Shown in pieces: positions 31,491-39,100 of a stretch of DNA of 64,000 bases. The notes beneath the pieces are model-generated. The model searched no databases and was not told where the DNA came from. It worked only from the letters and a program-made list of their open reading frames with translations. Both the position numbers and the translations under genes were made by a program. The DNA lies in the NCBI GenBank assembly GCA_030272585.1, contig BSYQ01000003.1:1550001-1614000 (forward strand). The letters run 5' to 3'. Source of the stretch: Bryopsis sp. KO-2023. Taxonomy: Eukaryota; Chlorophyta; Ulvophyceae; Bryopsidales; Bryopsidaceae. The number at the start of each line of letters is the position of its first letter. Position 1 is the first letter of the stretch.

Positions 31491-34400
31491 ATGATGAAAG
31501 TCGCATGGGTCCTGGTTGCATTCTCAGTCGGTGCGTTTTTCGTCACTCTTGGGCAAGCGGCGCTCACGTTTGACCCGACCAATGGAAAGCAGTTCAACAA
31601 CAGCGGAGATGGATTCACTGGACCGCAGAGAGATTGCGACTTACAATGTCAGCGCGACCAGAGACTCGCGCTGGCGAGGCTGTTCGAAGCTACGAATGGA
31701 CAACATTGGCAATACAATCAGGGGTGGGTGGACGGAGACGTCACTTCCCATTGCGGCTGGTATGGAGTGCATTGCTGCACGGATGAAAACACGATTGTCA
31801 TCAAATACATCACGGTGGAAGGCTGGACGGTGACGTATGGAAACAGCGCGGAGAGCTTCGGGCAATACTGTCCCGTTACTCGGGGAGTGGCGGCGTTGAC
31901 GCTTTCGCTCAATAACCTCACGGGGACATTGCCCTACGACGTTTTCACCTACTTCACGGAGAGTCTCCAGTATTTGGATTTCCATGGAAATGGTATCAGA
32001 GGGGAGATTCCCTACTCGATTGGGGGGCTCACAGCCTTGAAGGAGCTATCGCTGAACAGCAACATGTTTCATGGGTCCATTCCGCCTTCGATTGGGCAGC
32101 TTCACGAGCTGATAGCGTTGAACCTGGCCGTGAACCAGTTGTCGGGAATACTGCCAGTGTCGCTGGGGGAGCTGAAGGATGTGCGTTGGATGATTCTCAA
32201 CGACAATTTTCTGACGGGCCCGGTTCCATTCTTCGTGTTTGGAGTGAGGTCGCTCAAGGTCATAAATCTCACCAACAACAAACTCTCTGGGAACATAACG
32301 GACGTTCGGTTGGCGTTTGTGGACATCGAAATCCCATATTTGCTGAGTGGGTTCAACATCGAGGAGTTGAAAATGCGGAACAATGAGATAGAGGGCACCA
32401 TACCCTCCACAATCACATCGCTGCCACTGACGGTCATGGATTTGGGGGGCAACAAGTTCTCAGGGCAAATTCCTTTAACTATTGCGAGGTCGCCATTTCT
32501 TCGAACGCTGCTGCTGGACAACAATCGACTCTCAGGGCCGATTCCAGACTATATTTCAAAATGGAATCTGGAAAACCTCGATGTCAGCAACAATTATCTA
32601 ACGGGAACCGTGCCAGATGGGTTGGCCATCAGAACGTTGAGAAGCTTGAATCTAGCGAACAACAGTCTGTCTGGGCCGCTACCCGATGCTTTTCAGAGCA
32701 TGGACAGGTTGTATTCTCTGGACATCAGTTCAAACGGGGACATGATGCACAAGACGTTGAACTCACGGGAAGAACGACTGCCAGAGTACTTGGAATTCAA
32801 CAAACTGGGACAGTTTCCACAAGTCGACAGTTACGGTCGTTCACGAAAAATGAACTGCCCACAGCCAATGGGGAATCAATACTTTTTCTCATCTACCCAA
32901 GACGAATCGTTCCAAAAGGTCGAGATCAGTCCAGAATACTATGGATTTCAAGGGTGCGACTGCGCTGATCAGAAGGTTTTTAAGCGGGTGGAGGTGGTCG
33001 AGGACGGCGTGACAGTGAGCTTGACTTGCATCAGAAAGAATGAAGAGGGGGATGCAACACCATGGAGTCTGATCATTACTCCGATTGTGCTGATTGGCAT
33101 CATGACGCCTCTGGCGTTGTGGACGTGGTTCAGATACAGAGTTACTCTGGCGAGGATACAGATGACTCTGATCAAGAGAAAAGGGCCTCCAGGAACAGAT
33201 CGTGAAGTTACGCTCGTTCTCACGGATGTGGAGGGCTCAACAGAGCTCTGGGAATGGGATACAGAGATTATGGCGGAGGCCATTGATACGCATGATAGAG
33301 TGATGCGCTCCCAGCTGGCGAAGTTTTTTGGATATGAGATCACGACGGAAGGGGATGCTTTTCTGGTTGCTTTCCATGAGCCAACGGATGCTTTGGCGTG
33401 GTGCCTCTCGTTGCAATACACGCTCCTTGGGGCGCCCTGGCCTGTGGAACTCATGAAACACAAGAAAGCAGCCATCGAAACCCGACAAACATTGGAGAGT
33501 GCATTTCTACACAAATACGAGAGCGGGGGGATTAAGGCATACGACCCTGATGATCATCGACCTCCTTTTCCTCTCACTGCGAATGAGTCGGCACTTCTGG
33601 CAAAGCTGGAGCAATCAGCAGAAGACCATCAAACGTTGATCGCTGGCCTGAGAGGTCTGGGTGTTTATTTCCGGGGCCTGAGGGTTCGAATGGGTATTGC
33701 CACTGGGGTGCCTGAGAGCATGCGGATTCACAAAATGACGATGAGGTCTGAGTATTTTGGGGATGTCGTTCGGAGAGCGCAGGCGGTGTCTGACACCCCC
33801 CATGGAGGACAAGTGCTGATGGATCAGGAAACCTTTGCAATTGTGAACAGCAGGCTGGATGAATTGGGGGCGATGGTGAACGAGGCAATCTTGAGCAGTA
33901 AGGGACTCGCTGAACGGAAAAGGAAGAGTTGGTTGCGGCGGCTGTTCGGAACAAGGGATAAATCGAAGGTTGCGTGTGACGTCATACCAGACGAATCTGA
34001 AGTTGGGATGGACGACACTGGGGAGGGGTACGGTACACAAGGGCTGGAAGCTGAGGGGAGTGGCACAAGTCGATTCGGCACCCAAGGAACCAACAAGGAT
34101 ACCGCGATCGAGTCGAAGGAAAATGATTCATCTTCTGGCTCGAAGAGCAAGAAAAGGAACAAAGGATGGAGGCGGATGTCCACTGCGTCGGCCGTAACGG
34201 TCATCGATATGGGGGTGCACAAGTTGAAAGGAATAACACAACCCAACAATTTGATACAAGTGGTCATACCTGGCTTGGAAGAGAGGGCGAGGTTCTTTCC
34301 ACCATTGGATTCTGAAACCCAAATGTCACCTGGATATTTCGACGCGCCAGCAACCAAACTGACGCCGCTGGACGGTTCCAGGCCGAGCGGAAACCTTGGG

Positions 34401-35840
34401 ATTCCCACTGTAACGCTGGTGTTTTGTACGATGGAGCGTTTCACGGACATGCAAGCCACTGATAAGCTCGCTGCCGAGGAGGCGCTCACAATCTACAACG
34501 ACTGTATTCGTAGAACGCTGCTGGGAGCCGGGGGATATGAATGTCAAGAGCAAGAAGGAAGCTACATGATCAGTTTCATGACGGCAACTGCCGCTGTGGA
34601 ATGGTGCTTGCTGGTGCAGGAGGTTCTTATGGAGATCGACTGGACAGGGGATGTTATGAAATTACCTGGCACCGCAGAGGAGTACAATAGCAATGGGCTG
34701 CCCGCTTTCCGAGGCCCCAGGGTAAAAATGGGGATCTATGAAGGCGTGCCTACCCGAGCGGTTCCTCACAGCACCACCGGGAGAGCCGACTACTTTGGGC
34801 AATTTGTGAACAGGGCTGCTCGTTTCTGCCACGCAGCAGCTCGAGGTGGTCAAGTTATCGCTTCTCGCCAGGTGATGGAGAAAATCGTTTCCAGCTGGCG
34901 GGGTGTGGATACGACCGGTCTTTGTGAGAAGACGCCCATCCAGTGCACCATCATGATTGACAACAAGGGATTTCAAAGGGCAGCATTAACTTGGAAAGCG
35001 GGGAACATAGGTGGAAAATCAGCGTCCGTATTTCCCAAGGTGACGGTGGTGCCTTTTGACGATTCCAACATCGTTCAAAGGGATCCTGTCTCCAGACCGG
35101 CGCCACTGGGGGAGGGCCAAGAGATCGAGGGGGTCAGAGAGATGGAAATCAGCGAGTCGCAACCGTTTGCATCTATCAAGAGTGGGCTGAAAAAGCTAAA
35201 AACCCCGCTCAACGAGAGCCCAGGCACTGAGAGAGGGGCGAGCGATGAAAGCGTGAGCCAAGCATTCACAGACTCATTCACCACCACAGGTGTGGAAGAG
35301 CCCAAGTACATGAGCAGCTTCAGCGTTTCCTCGAGATTGAAGACCAGATGGTGGTCGTGGGTTGAAAGGTTGGAGGTGGAGGATTTAGGGAGCTATCGGT
35401 TCAAGGGGGTATCGGGATTGCACAGAATCGTTTCAATAAAGAGTCAAAGGTTGATCGGCAGACAGTTCGCTGGGGGGATTCGGCAGGGGAAGGGGGAAAA
35501 AGTCGATCCTGGGACGGGCGTCGTATATTCCATACGCATCATGGACCATATTTCCGCCACGCCTGGTGTGGAGGGTGCTGGGGACACACATTCGAGGGAG
35601 GTAGCCGAAGGATCTCCGGAGGAGGAAAAGTTAAGTACCAGAGTGGGTAAAAAGAATCTACTCCCTTTGAAGCACAACAAGACAAGGAGAAAATCTGCTC
35701 TCGTGGATGAGGGCCAGCGGGTTCTGCTCCATTCGTACGACACCACTGGGGGGTTGCCTGGCTCTGTGTCAAGGTCGGGGTCGCCCACACCGGCCGAGTT
35801 GCTACCTCAGTCCGGGTTAATTCCGGGACCTCGAAATTGA
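31491..35840 (+). CDS. Membrane receptor with leucine-rich repeats and two class III nucleotide cyclase domains
   Basis: Single uninterrupted frame of 1,449 residues. Order: signal peptide (about 1-22, MMKVAWVLVAFSVGAFFVTL); Cys-rich cap (DCDLQCQRDQR, W...HCGWYGVHCC); about ten plant-type leucine-rich repeats (L..L.L..N.L.G.IP) to about residue 420; Cys-containing juxtamembrane part; one membrane segment about 525-549; cytoplasmic cyclase domain 1 (from about 570) and domain 2 (from about 970), each ending in a KG..G/RFKGVSG-type strand. Domain 1 has both metal Asp (D579 in TDVEGST, D622 in EGDAF) but lacks the transition-state Asn/Arg (R761, A765). Domain 2 lacks the metal Asp (T980, S1024) but has D1100, N1107 and R1111. 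The specificity Lys position is T618 / E1020. The natural reading is one shared site making cAMP or cGMP under control of an external ligand. Being intronless among intron-rich neighbours is notable. Confidence 0.9.
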   Translation: MMKVAWVLVAFSVGAFFVTLGQAALTFDPTNGKQFNNSGDGFTGPQRDCDLQCQRDQRLALARLFEATNGQHWQYNQGWVDGDVTSHCGWYGVHCCTDENTIVIKYITVEGWTVTYGNSAESFGQYCPVTRGVAALTLSLNNLTGTLPYDVFTYFTESLQYLDFHGNGIRGEIPYSIGGLTALKELSLNSNMFHGSIPPSIGQLHELIALNLAVNQLSGILPVSLGELKDVRWMILNDNFLTGPVPFFVFGVRSLKVINLTNNKLSGNITDVRLAFVDIEIPYLLSGFNIEELKMRNNEIEGTIPSTITSLPLTVMDLGGNKFSGQIPLTIARSPFLRTLLLDNNRLSGPIPDYISKWNLENLDVSNNYLTGTVPDGLAIRTLRSLNLANNSLSGPLPDAFQSMDRLYSLDISSNGDMMHKTLNSREERLPEYLEFNKLGQFPQVDSYGRSRKMNCPQPMGNQYFFSSTQDESFQKVEISPEYYGFQGCDCADQKVFKRVEVVEDGVTVSLTCIRKNEEGDATPWSLIITPIVLIGIMTPLALWTWFRYRVTLARIQMTLIKRKGPPGTDREVTLVLTDVEGSTELWEWDTEIMAEAIDTHDRVMRSQLAKFFGYEITTEGDAFLVAFHEPTDALAWCLSLQYTLLGAPWPVELMKHKKAAIETRQTLESAFLHKYESGGIKAYDPDDHRPPFPLTANESALLAKLEQSAEDHQTLIAGLRGLGVYFRGLRVRMGIATGVPESMRIHKMTMRSEYFGDVVRRAQAVSDTPHGGQVLMDQETFAIVNSRLDELGAMVNEAILSSKGLAERKRKSWLRRLFGTRDKSKVACDVIPDESEVGMDDTGEGYGTQGLEAEGSGTSRFGTQGTNKDTAIESKENDSSSGSKSKKRNKGWRRMSTASAVTVIDMGVHKLKGITQPNNLIQVVIPGLEERARFFPPLDSETQMSPGYFDAPATKLTPLDGSRPSGNLGIPTVTLVFCTMERFTDMQATDKLAAEEALTIYNDCIRRTLLGAGGYECQEQEGSYMISFMTATAAVEWCLLVQEVLMEIDWTGDVMKLPGTAEEYNSNGLPAFRGPRVKMGIYEGVPTRAVPHSTTGRADYFGQFVNRAARFCHAAARGGQVIASRQVMEKIVSSWRGVDTTGLCEKTPIQCTIMIDNKGFQRAALTWKAGNIGGKSASVFPKVTVVPFDDSNIVQRDPVSRPAPLGEGQEIEGVREMEISESQPFASIKSGLKKLKTPLNESPGTERGASDESVSQAFTDSFTTTGVEEPKYMSSFSVSSRLKTRWWSWVERLEVEDLGSYRFKGVSGLHRIVSIKSQRLIGRQFAGGIRQGKGEKVDPGTGVVYSIRIMDHISATPGVEGAGDTHSREVAEGSPEEEKLSTRVGKKNLLPLKHNKTRRKSALVDEGQRVLLHSYDTTGGLPGSVSRSGSPTPAELLPQSGLIPGPRN

Positions 35841-36158: not shown

Positions 36159-39100
36159 CTACAAGCCCTTTTTGTTTCGCATCTGTCGAGAGTACTCATA
36201 CACCGCCACCGCCCCACTCACATGCACGTTCAGTGATCGGACAATCCCCAGCTGGGGTATTTCCAGCGTGGAATCCAAAACTTGGAGAAGCTCAGCAGGA
36301 ATTCCCTCTTTTTCACGACCGAGCACCACCACACAATCTCGAGGAAAATCGTAGTCCGGCAAAACAACCGACTCGGAGGTCTGTTCCAGCCCAAGCAGAG
36401 CGTAGCCTTGACTTCTCTTCACTTGCAGCCACGGTAACAAAGCTGCTGGGGGTACCTCCTCCATGGGCATCCATTGCTCAGCTGTCGTGCTGATCGCCGT
36501 GAATTGCTTGTCTTTCAGCACTCTCAAATCTGCCATCACCAGCAATTGAGCCCTGAAAACCTCACAAGTCCTTGCCAAACCGGCCAGATTCGGCACCTTG
36601 TCAATCAGCGATGCAACCATGATCACTCCTTGTCTTTTTTGAGTTTGATGGCGGCCAGCGGAGCACACCAGGTCTTCAAAATCCACAAACCCATTGCTGC
36701 CAAAGGGCTCAAACATGCTGATAGATGATAAAGTCCCTGGTTGCATGAACTCGCTCACCCCCTCCCCTCCTTGAATGGCGATCGCCTTGTCCAATGGTGT
36801 GATTTTCCTCTGGAAATCCCCAACAAACCCATCGATTTTCTCAACTGGAGTGGAGCCCCCTCTGTGACCGACCAGCTGCGATCCCGCTTCTTTTGCCATG
36901 ATTTGTTCCTGATTCGAGATTCGAATTTTCGCTCTAGCCTTGGTCAAAAAATCCCTCAACTTCTGGATCAGGGAATCTGGAGCCCCCTCGAACGCAATCT
37001 GGTCTTCCTCCAACCCCGCCAAACTCGGTCCAGAAACGAAAACCGATTTTGGCGTGGCGATTTCCTTTCTGTAAAACTCATTCAGCCCTCCCCCGAGAGT
37101 GCCTCTCTGTTTTTCCATGTCAGGATTTCGGTCAAAAAATTCCATGAGCTTCGTACGCAGTCCATCCATCGATGACTGTTCTTGGTCAGTTTCCAGGTCC
37201 CTGATCCTGACAAGGAGGGTTTGTACAGCAAGTTGAGCGAAAACTCTGGTGGCATGGTGGTGCGAGAGGCTCCAGGGCAAAATGGCATTCAGAAAACGTC
37301 CAAGCTGCTCGACATTTCCGCAAGCCAGGGCCACCTTCGGAGAATTAAGAAACACATGCATCAAAGAAATCTGAAATCTGTAGTTCTCTTAAACTACGGT
37401 GGAACAACAAAACAGAACAGCTTGACTGGAGGAAAGCAAATTCAGTGGAAAAAAACGAAAGGGGGCAAAAACGAAAAGTGTGTGAGTGTTTATGTGCGGG
37501 GGCTGGATCAAATGCTCTTAATGCAAATCAACATTTCGAATGCAAAATATACCTGGAGACCAACCAGCATATATGATGGCAGAGCCTCCTGCCTTTCCGT
37601 GAAATCCTCAACGATCGGCAACAGCTTTTCCCACATAAAATCTGGCTCCACTATGAACAGCTTTGTCAGGGTGGCCTCCATGAACATTCTGATCGACGCC
37701 ACATTGCCTCGCTGCAACAAAACCCCTAGCTTCTCGACAGCTTCCAGAATTTCTTCGCGTTCCACCAAACAATTGCTGGCCACACACAACGCTTGCCACA
37801 GCCGAGTTTTCACTCGATGGGTGGAGGACCCGGTTTTGTATTGTGTGAGGGTTTGCTGTGGATCAGTCAAAGCGATGTCCAACAGGTGAGCCCACAGCTT
37901 CCTACCAGCTTCCCCTGTGCCGACCACCAAACATCAAAATCCACCTCTCTCTCAGCAACAGAGGAGCCAAAACAAAAAGCAAAAGGCAATATCATTGCAA
38001 ACGACCCATGCAATCTGACCTGCTTGCATACGGATTTCTTGACTTTCCCCTCCGCTTGCAAGTTTGGACAATTCATATATGAAGCAAACAATGGCCACCC
38101 TTGGGGCAACTCTGGCAGTCATGTAAGCATCCACAAGATCGGGGTCCGATCCTTTGGAAATCTTTGAGAGCTCTTCCTCAAGTTCAGGGTTGCTGATTCC
38201 CTGTGGATCAGCCTAGCAACAAAAAAAAAGTATAACTCTTGGGATGCTCCACTGAAAATACCATATCGCCCCCAGAAAAAGTGAATAAGAAAACGAAATG
38301 ACCCTCAGCTCACCGCATCAACTTCAATACTTTTTTTTGGAAGTTATTATTATTATTCTTGTGCCGGTGAACCGATTCCTATCTGTAGGAGTCATGGTGA
38401 AATTTACGTAAGAGCCTAACGGCGAAAACAAGAAAATTACCCGATGATCTGTGGAGCCTTTGTCGTTGGTTCCATAGAGGATGATCGATGTAATGTGTGG
38501 TGTGTAGAGTTGCACCAGACATGGCCATCGAATCAAGGAACTGCTCAATTTCATGGTGGTCAATAGCATAACTCTCGGGGATCGTTCTCCCAACCCCACC
38601 AGTCGCTCAATCAACCAGAACATCGGCCCGTCGCTTTCATGCAGGCTCCATCGATCATCCATCTCGCTCTTCGTACAGTAAAAAAGAAAAAGAAAATTAA
38701 AACTTTTATTCATTGTTTCATTTTTTTGATTTATTTAACAGGGATAAAAAAGGGAAAAAACGTGACCTTTGGCAATCGAAAACATGAGACGATAAAAAAA
38801 CCCTGAAATGAAAAATGATTAGGTTTGTGGAGTGTTAAAATGTGGTTGAGCAACTGTGTTACTAAAAATAGATGAGAATCGCTATTTTCTAGATTGAAAC
38901 CAGGATCGAGAAAAGCAAAATGAAATCGAGATTATCTTCGATTTCAGACAGCACAGACGCTCGCATATCTATATCTATCTATATTTGTATTATATTATAT
39001 TTATCCAATCTATGGTTGAACATATCCATGTTTACATATAAAAAAACATATCTGCACTTCAACCAAGCATCAAAATGAAATCGTGTCAAGAGCTGCTGTC

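Follow-up and report, generated by a model that had tools for sequence, protein, structure and literature searches.

Gene architecture and catalytic residues

The window analyzed in this study is a stretch of 64,000 nucleotides from Bryopsis sp. KO-2023 (contig BSYQ01000003.1, positions 1,550,001 to 1,614,000). The gene considered here occupies positions 31491..35840 of its plus strand, on which all features of the encoded protein are located, and represents one open frame of 1449 codons with an ATG start. An N-terminal signal segment (31491..31565, hydrophobic residues 7-25) was recognized by hydropathy alone, without a dedicated signal-peptide program. It is followed by plant-type leucine-rich repeats (LRRs; residues ~134-420, 31890..32750, limits set by eye from the repeats), a juxtamembrane cysteine motif of the form CP..YY..CxC..C (residues 456-513, 32856..33029) and a membrane segment deduced from hydropathy (residues 527-545, 33069..33125). 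Two cyclase domains lie behind it, namely C1 (residues ~572-930, 33204..34280), predicted to form the metal side of a composite active site, and C2 (residues ~973-1319, 34407..35447), predicted to form the base, ribose and transition-state side. The linker between them (34281..34406) carries a motif like PGLExRARxFPPL...PGYFDAP (consensus) that is conserved in homologues. Based on these features, the gene likely encodes a single-pass green algal receptor nucleotidyl cyclase, in which C1 and C2 would pair as a class III heterodimer that has a single predicted working site, probably using adenosine triphosphate (ATP).

Searches of the 1449-amino-acid protein against Pfam returned LRR_1, LRR_8 and LRR_4 as well as two stretches of PF00211 (score 70.4 bits, cut-off 21.9), and neither PP2C nor protein kinase matches were obtained at E-values up to 1. 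In the PDB, ectodomains of plant LRR receptor kinases were the top matches of the whole protein. Furthermore, hydropathy indicated a signal segment and a single membrane segment, not twelve helices. The initial annotation had described a single-pass receptor with plant-type LRRs, which is borne out by the hydropathy profile and by the Pfam and PDB matches. Among 38 listed proteins having at least two LRR matches or the cysteine motif, the motif was present in 17.

The two domains together hold the full class III set of catalytic residues. C1 contains the first and the second metal-binding Asp (D579, 33225..33227; D622, 33354..33356), and its Asn and Arg positions, occupied by R761 and A765, are both lost (33771..33785). 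In C2, the first metal Asp is replaced by T980 (34428..34430) and the second by S1024, the latter within a segment that also includes the likely base reader Q1019 and its alternative E1020 (34545..34562). D1100 (base), N1107 (ribose) and R1111 (transition state) are retained in this domain (34788..34823). All residues named in the initial annotation occur at the positions and in the states given there. Moreover, C1 has the beta-4 Arg R733 (33687..33689), the corresponding residue of C2 being K1079, and C2 has the phosphate Lys K1305 (35403..35405) within the motif YRFKGV at 1302. The roles of R733 in triphosphate binding and of K1305 are assigned by analogy to the Chlamydomonas reinhardtii cyclase structure, as described in excerpts of PMC2576301.

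Conservation of the complementary halves in homologues

Homologue searches (best 120 of 262 and best 120 of 324 matches) yielded 211 proteins including that of the window, and all counts on homologues cover these listed matches. The cyclase halves were located by means of a two-part profile. In total, 134 of the 211 proteins possess exactly two full domains, and 77 were left uncounted (65 with another domain number, 12 with one half missing). An exact split was defined as a C1 with both Asp residues and without Asn and Arg, followed on the same chain by a C2 with Asn and Arg and without Asp.

This exact split was observed in 88 of the 134 two-domain proteins, i.e., the window protein and 87 others, and the complementary loss exceeds chance, since it is shared to this extent; the 134 proteins are related and partly redundant, their cases not being independent. 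The remaining proteins showed a C1 in which one metal residue was absent or could not be read (11), one metal residue remaining in C2 (9), no readable Asn/Arg in either domain (7), two complete domains (2), a complete first domain only (2) or other mixed kinds (15). Entries from Mesostigma viride, some of which are isoforms, account for 50 of the 211 proteins, 43 of the two-domain proteins and 26 of the exact splits; without them, 62 of 91 two-domain proteins are exactly split. Homologues with a complete active site in one domain, named in the initial annotation as evidence against a shared site, were sought: the 30 two-domain proteins that have two or more LRR matches, of which 20 are exact splits, include none, and four (P0077, P0101, P0171, P0172) were found in the whole set of 134. 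Conservation of the split thus supports the proposal that the two domains complement each other in a single class III site, and the prediction of one composite site for each C1:C2 pair has good support.

The partition exceeds the residues first noted, since the beta-4 Arg and the Lys are also partitioned. Within the 88 exact splits, 73 proteins have the Arg in C1 (15 unmatched by the pattern) and nine have it in C2 (20 unmatched), and the Lys motif followed C2 in 58 and C1 in three when one pattern and equal stretches were applied. With a less strict pattern and a longer region considered behind C2, the counts had been 71 versus three. The distance from the membrane helix to C1 is 20-44 residues in 70 of the 72 exact splits with a helix found; no helix was detected in the other 16 of the 88.

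Several homologues showed features of their own. The LRR proteins P0022, P0024, P0032, P0033 and P0034 of Trebouxia and Myrmecia kept the C1 metal residues and lost Asn or both Asn and Arg in C2; they are candidate pseudo-cyclase receptors. Residues 418-482 of P0022 hold four tandem copies of VLTDVEGST, the motif of the first C1 strand, at a spacing of ~23 residues, which represent either a repeat or a gene-model artefact. P0011 and P0012 contain five cyclase domains in tandem, of which four are complete and one is degenerate. At least 50 listed entries (P0053, P0056, P0057, P0061, P0062, P0121 and 44 of P0122-P0167) belong to Mesostigma viride, and many of them have a Peripla_BP_4 ectodomain, representing a large expansion of receptor cyclases.

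Predicted domain pairing, mechanism and substrate

According to the proposed mechanism, the extracellular LRRs would bind a ligand or partner. The membrane helix leads by ~28 residues into C1, and a change outside could therefore reach the cyclase core. The metal would be bound by D579 and D622 of C1 and the triphosphate by R733 of the same domain, and C2 would contribute the base-reading pair Q1019/D1100, the ribose residue N1107, the transition-state residue R1111 and the phosphate residue K1305. The mirror-image site would be dead, leaving one working site per C1:C2 pair. Pairing, activity, substrate and control by an extracellular ligand are what we infer from the sequence. Four observations weigh against this reading. 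C1 retains a Lys motif (K913) for which no need is expected, and 46 of the 134 two-domain homologues are not exactly split. Furthermore, the modelled C1:C2 pair fails to superpose on those of mammalian soluble adenylyl cyclase (sAC) or AC9, and the base position is held by Gln, not by the Lys of known ATP-specific cyclases, in a longer loop in which E1020 may be the reader.

AlphaFold models were computed for residues 560-1330 of the window protein (alignment with 47 other rows) and for the compact homologue P0049 (40 other rows). The initial annotation had proposed such a model as a check for antiparallel class III pairing. In both models each single domain folds well and adopts the class III fold, in agreement with the proposal, but the pair did not superpose on sAC or AC9. 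Low confidence concerned an insert of C1 at ~825-898 and one of C2 at ~1194-1277. In Foldseek comparisons with the two-domain chains of sAC and AC9, the window model reached TM values by target of 0.22-0.29 at root-mean-square deviations (rmsd) of 20-25. The P0049 model reached 0.27-0.33 (rmsd 19-21) against the soluble-domain chains and 0.17 (rmsd 29.6) against whole AC9 (6r3q). The VIA structure comparison listed 50 rows for each model, comprising single-domain rows only for the window protein and, as rows covering both domains of P0049, OaPAC (rmsd 13.6); sAC and AC9 were not among the listed rows for either model, which excludes nothing. No head-to-tail geometry in cis is claimed from the models, as neither pair superposes on sAC or AC9 (rmsd ~19-25).

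Pairing in trans is possible, though rather doubtful. Here, C1 of one chain would pair with C2 of the other within a receptor dimer, giving two composite sites built by ligand-driven dimerisation or twisting, a role proposed for dimerisation in trypanosome receptor cyclases. Besides the failed superposition of both cis pairs, the closest solved relatives, i.e., trypanosome receptors, argue for this arrangement, being proposed homodimers according to passages of PMC6027212. However, the predicted TM score (pTM) of 0.77 for the window model suggests, by our own estimate, a firm placement of the domains against each other. Moreover, C1 and C2 reside on the same chain in 88 of 88 exact splits; this argument is weak because the one-chain layout was the selection criterion.

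Regarding the substrate, base codes were compiled from 111 C2 domains with Asn and Arg and without the first Asp. The residues at Y+3 (counted from the conserved Tyr) and in the base column were Q-D in 50 domains, E-A in 40, E-T in five and E-S in four, and the other 12 include E-E (2), E-D (1) and Q-E (1). The window protein has Q-D (Q1019, D1100), as do 19 of the 20 exact-split LRR proteins. Among the 56 complete domains of the 211 proteins, K-D was found in 55 and R-D in one. Lys with Asp or Thr is associated with ATP and Glu with Cys or Ser with guanosine triphosphate (GTP), as stated in excerpts of PMC7384201. As judged from these codes, the Q-D group, including the window protein, probably uses ATP and the E-A/S/T group GTP. 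With ATP as the probable substrate of the window protein, cyclic AMP (cAMP) is the predicted product.

The loop is one residue longer in C2 (103 of 111), its short form being present in C1 (103 of 111) and in the complete domains (56 of 56), and E1020 could therefore be the base reader. In this case the product would be cyclic GMP (cGMP), or both ATP and GTP would be used, which we consider unlikely. E1020 lies four residues back from the lost Asp, comparable to Glu523/Asp527 of the C. reinhardtii cyclase (excerpts of PMC2576301), and the mutual information with the base column is higher at Y+5 (1.199 bits) than at Y+3 (0.943 bits), which also speaks for this possibility. However, D1100 is an adenine-type residue, and within the 111 domains Gln at Y+3 goes with Asp in 50 of 51 cases and Glu with Ala, Thr or Ser in 49 of 53. 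Moreover, Y+4 does not track the base column because it is Glu in both groups (94 of 111). The association with the base column thus favours Q1019 over E1020, Y+5 scoring higher still. Covariation of the base code was also considered as statistical proof on a tree of 85 C2 domains (of 112, near-copies removed) and five outgroup rows, and was rejected: the change between Asp and non-Asp occurs twice, amounting to one or two independent pairs.

That the cyclase pair is an inactive binding or scaffold module is very improbable: the seven of 134 relatives without readable Asn/Arg, including LRR proteins of Trebouxia and Myrmecia, show that degraded C2 domains exist (the loss in P0009 and P0104 being an incomplete match only), but every working-site role is kept in its proper half here and in most relatives.

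Related systems, origin and genomic context

The predicted composite-site receptor resembles several known systems in part. The trypanosome proteins GRESAG 4.1 and 4.3 (PDB 1fx2, 1fx4) are the closest solved structures to C1 in sequence and fold and the closest to the C2 profile. Like the window protein, trypanosome receptor cyclases have a large ectodomain, one membrane helix and an internal cyclase (described in excerpts of PMC6027212), but they have one complete homodimerising domain and a Venus-flytrap ectodomain, in contrast to two complementary domains and LRRs. Mammalian transmembrane adenylyl cyclases contain twelve membrane helices in two sets, whereas one is predicted here; the metal Asp residues in C1 and the Asn/Arg in C2 are common to both. 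Transmembrane adenylyl cyclases and sAC likewise combine one working and one non-functional site in two unlike domains (excerpts of PMC2576301), but the modelled pair does not superpose on theirs. Fungal LRR adenylate cyclases of the CYR1 type also combine LRRs with a class III cyclase on a single polypeptide. The corresponding passages of PMC2939053 describe them as having PP2C and a single cyclase domain and as lacking a predicted membrane helix, whereas the window protein has a membrane helix, two cyclase domains and no PP2C match. Plant LRR receptor kinases are alike in ectodomain type and single membrane helix, but the window protein has a cyclase pair instead of a kinase. Finally, algal receptor cyclases with solute-binding or ANF-type ectodomains, e.g., in Mesostigma and on contig C6 of the Bryopsis genome, likewise have a single membrane segment followed by the split C1-C2 module; they differ in their ectodomains and in the C2 base pair, which is often E-A, E-S or E-T instead of Q-D.

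According to the initial annotation, the division arose on an LRR receptor. This claim did not hold, as many non-LRR proteins share the split. Exact splits without LRRs were found in Mesostigma, the diatoms Cyclotella atomus and Thalassiosira exigua, the dinoflagellate Effrenium voratum and Haematococcus entries. N-terminal parts in the wider set include Peripla_BP_4, PBP_like_2, ANF_receptor and p25-alpha, and one exact-split protein bears a class I phosphodiesterase. The exact split is absent from two Pyramimonas proteins, P0064 (Bmp and ephrin-receptor-like repeats) and P0192 (solute-binding). The split thus seems to predate the LRR fusion.

Among solved structures, T. brucei receptor cyclases are closest both to the cytoplasmic part and to a C2 profile built from nine sequences, followed by mycobacterial Ma1120. 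The 18 PDB sequences obtained with the C2 profile at E-values up to 10 include no chain of mammalian C1/C2 or sAC. These searches favour kinship with the trypanosome type. As the split occurs in non-LRR proteins and both halves are nearest to trypanosome receptor cyclases, it is probably independent of the mammalian one. In a domain tree of 174 rows, from which catalytic columns had been removed and which rests on few columns and contains no mammalian sequence, C1-type rows grouped with a Shimodaira-Hasegawa-like approximate likelihood ratio (SH-aLRT) support of 88 and complete domains with 94, each with few strays. The C2 side reached a weak 56, the C1 and C2 labels requiring seven and ten changes, respectively; the tree does not show a single origin of C2. 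The likeliest course is that a trypanosome-type domain was duplicated, underwent complementary loss and acquired LRRs later, converging with the mammalian split.

On a broader scale, it is tentatively suggested, as a view that may well prove wrong, that core green algae, reportedly nearly devoid of LRR receptor kinases, joined plant-type LRRs to cyclic nucleotides by means of a split-site cyclase. The module would derive from a trypanosome-type homodimer independently of animals, would have given rise to two lines, one reading ATP (Q-D) and one reading GTP (E-A/S/T), and would have been fused, as a whole cyclase on one chain, to ectodomains of the LRR, solute-binding and natriuretic-receptor-like types.

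In plants, LRR receptors are coupled to kinases, and the gene described here and its relatives indicate that chlorophytes couple LRRs to cyclases. The family would represent a second lineage of complementary-site cyclases with base-reading residues of its own. RNI-like proteins form an LRR-type superfamily. In Chlamydomonas, more than 100 cyclases were reported, with 'RNI-like' and periplasmic-binding domains among the partners (excerpts of PMC5632652), and family members are candidate sources of the cAMP reported in mating of this alga (cited in passages of PMC8115329 and PMC5632652). A 2010 survey of 101 eukaryotes found LRR kinase receptors to be absent from chlorophytes except for two in one Chlorella, and LRR-cyclase proteins are said in its corresponding passages to be unique to fungi (PMC2939053). 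PMC12223298 contains LRR and cyclase terms, the passages in question concerning other proteins. In the open-licence literature no account of the split site of algal receptor cyclases was found, and one may be in print elsewhere. Complementary-site class III cyclases were already known; as far as searched, their union with a single-pass LRR receptor is new in this literature, as is an algal family that uses two base codes.

The genome of Bryopsis sp. KO-2023 itself (91,088,769 bases, 28 contigs) was also searched. At E-values up to 0.01, the cytoplasmic part matched itself, a contig C6 gene in four stretches (best E-value 9.8e-17) and contig C7 in one. The contig C6 gene (L029, 1050001-1058000, minus strand), read from unjoined exons, has a solute-binding PF01547 stretch upstream on the same strand (7.5e-10) and a hydrophobic segment. 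Its C1 keeps both Asp but neither Asn nor Arg, and its C2 has Asn and Arg, the base positions being Glu and Ala. It represents a second split receptor cyclase and a candidate guanylyl cyclase; the genome holds one split cyclase of the Q-D and one of the E-A type. The contig C7 stretch (L036, 1383001-1388000, minus strand) is a fragmentary third C1-like sequence with ITDLEGST and GYEINTEGDAF after a hydrophobic segment.

The top other LRR matches at E-values up to 1e-10 were L041, L042 and L043 on contig C1. The LRR proteins encoded there have a hydrophobic segment near their end (judged by eye), followed by a short tail, and no kinase or cyclase match was found in them. They are receptor-like proteins and might be partners. 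Furthermore, 17 stretches matched class I phosphodiesterase and 39 the cyclic nucleotide (cNMP)-binding domain. At L037 (contig C1, 5358001-5368000, minus strand), tandem cNMP-binding domains lie near the start of a protein kinase, as in cGMP-dependent protein kinase (PKG).

The gene is flanked in the window by one encoding a SpoU/TARBP1-type methyltransferase (36159-37364), whose best matches are metagenome contigs, followed by Trebouxia, Volvox and land plants. The cyclase and SpoU relatives P0002/P0214 and P0003/P0213 are located on metagenome contigs of the same size (20044 and 14925, respectively), and the two genes are therefore probably neighbours there too. The homologues of the cyclase and of the SpoU/TARBP1-type protein both point to a green alga.

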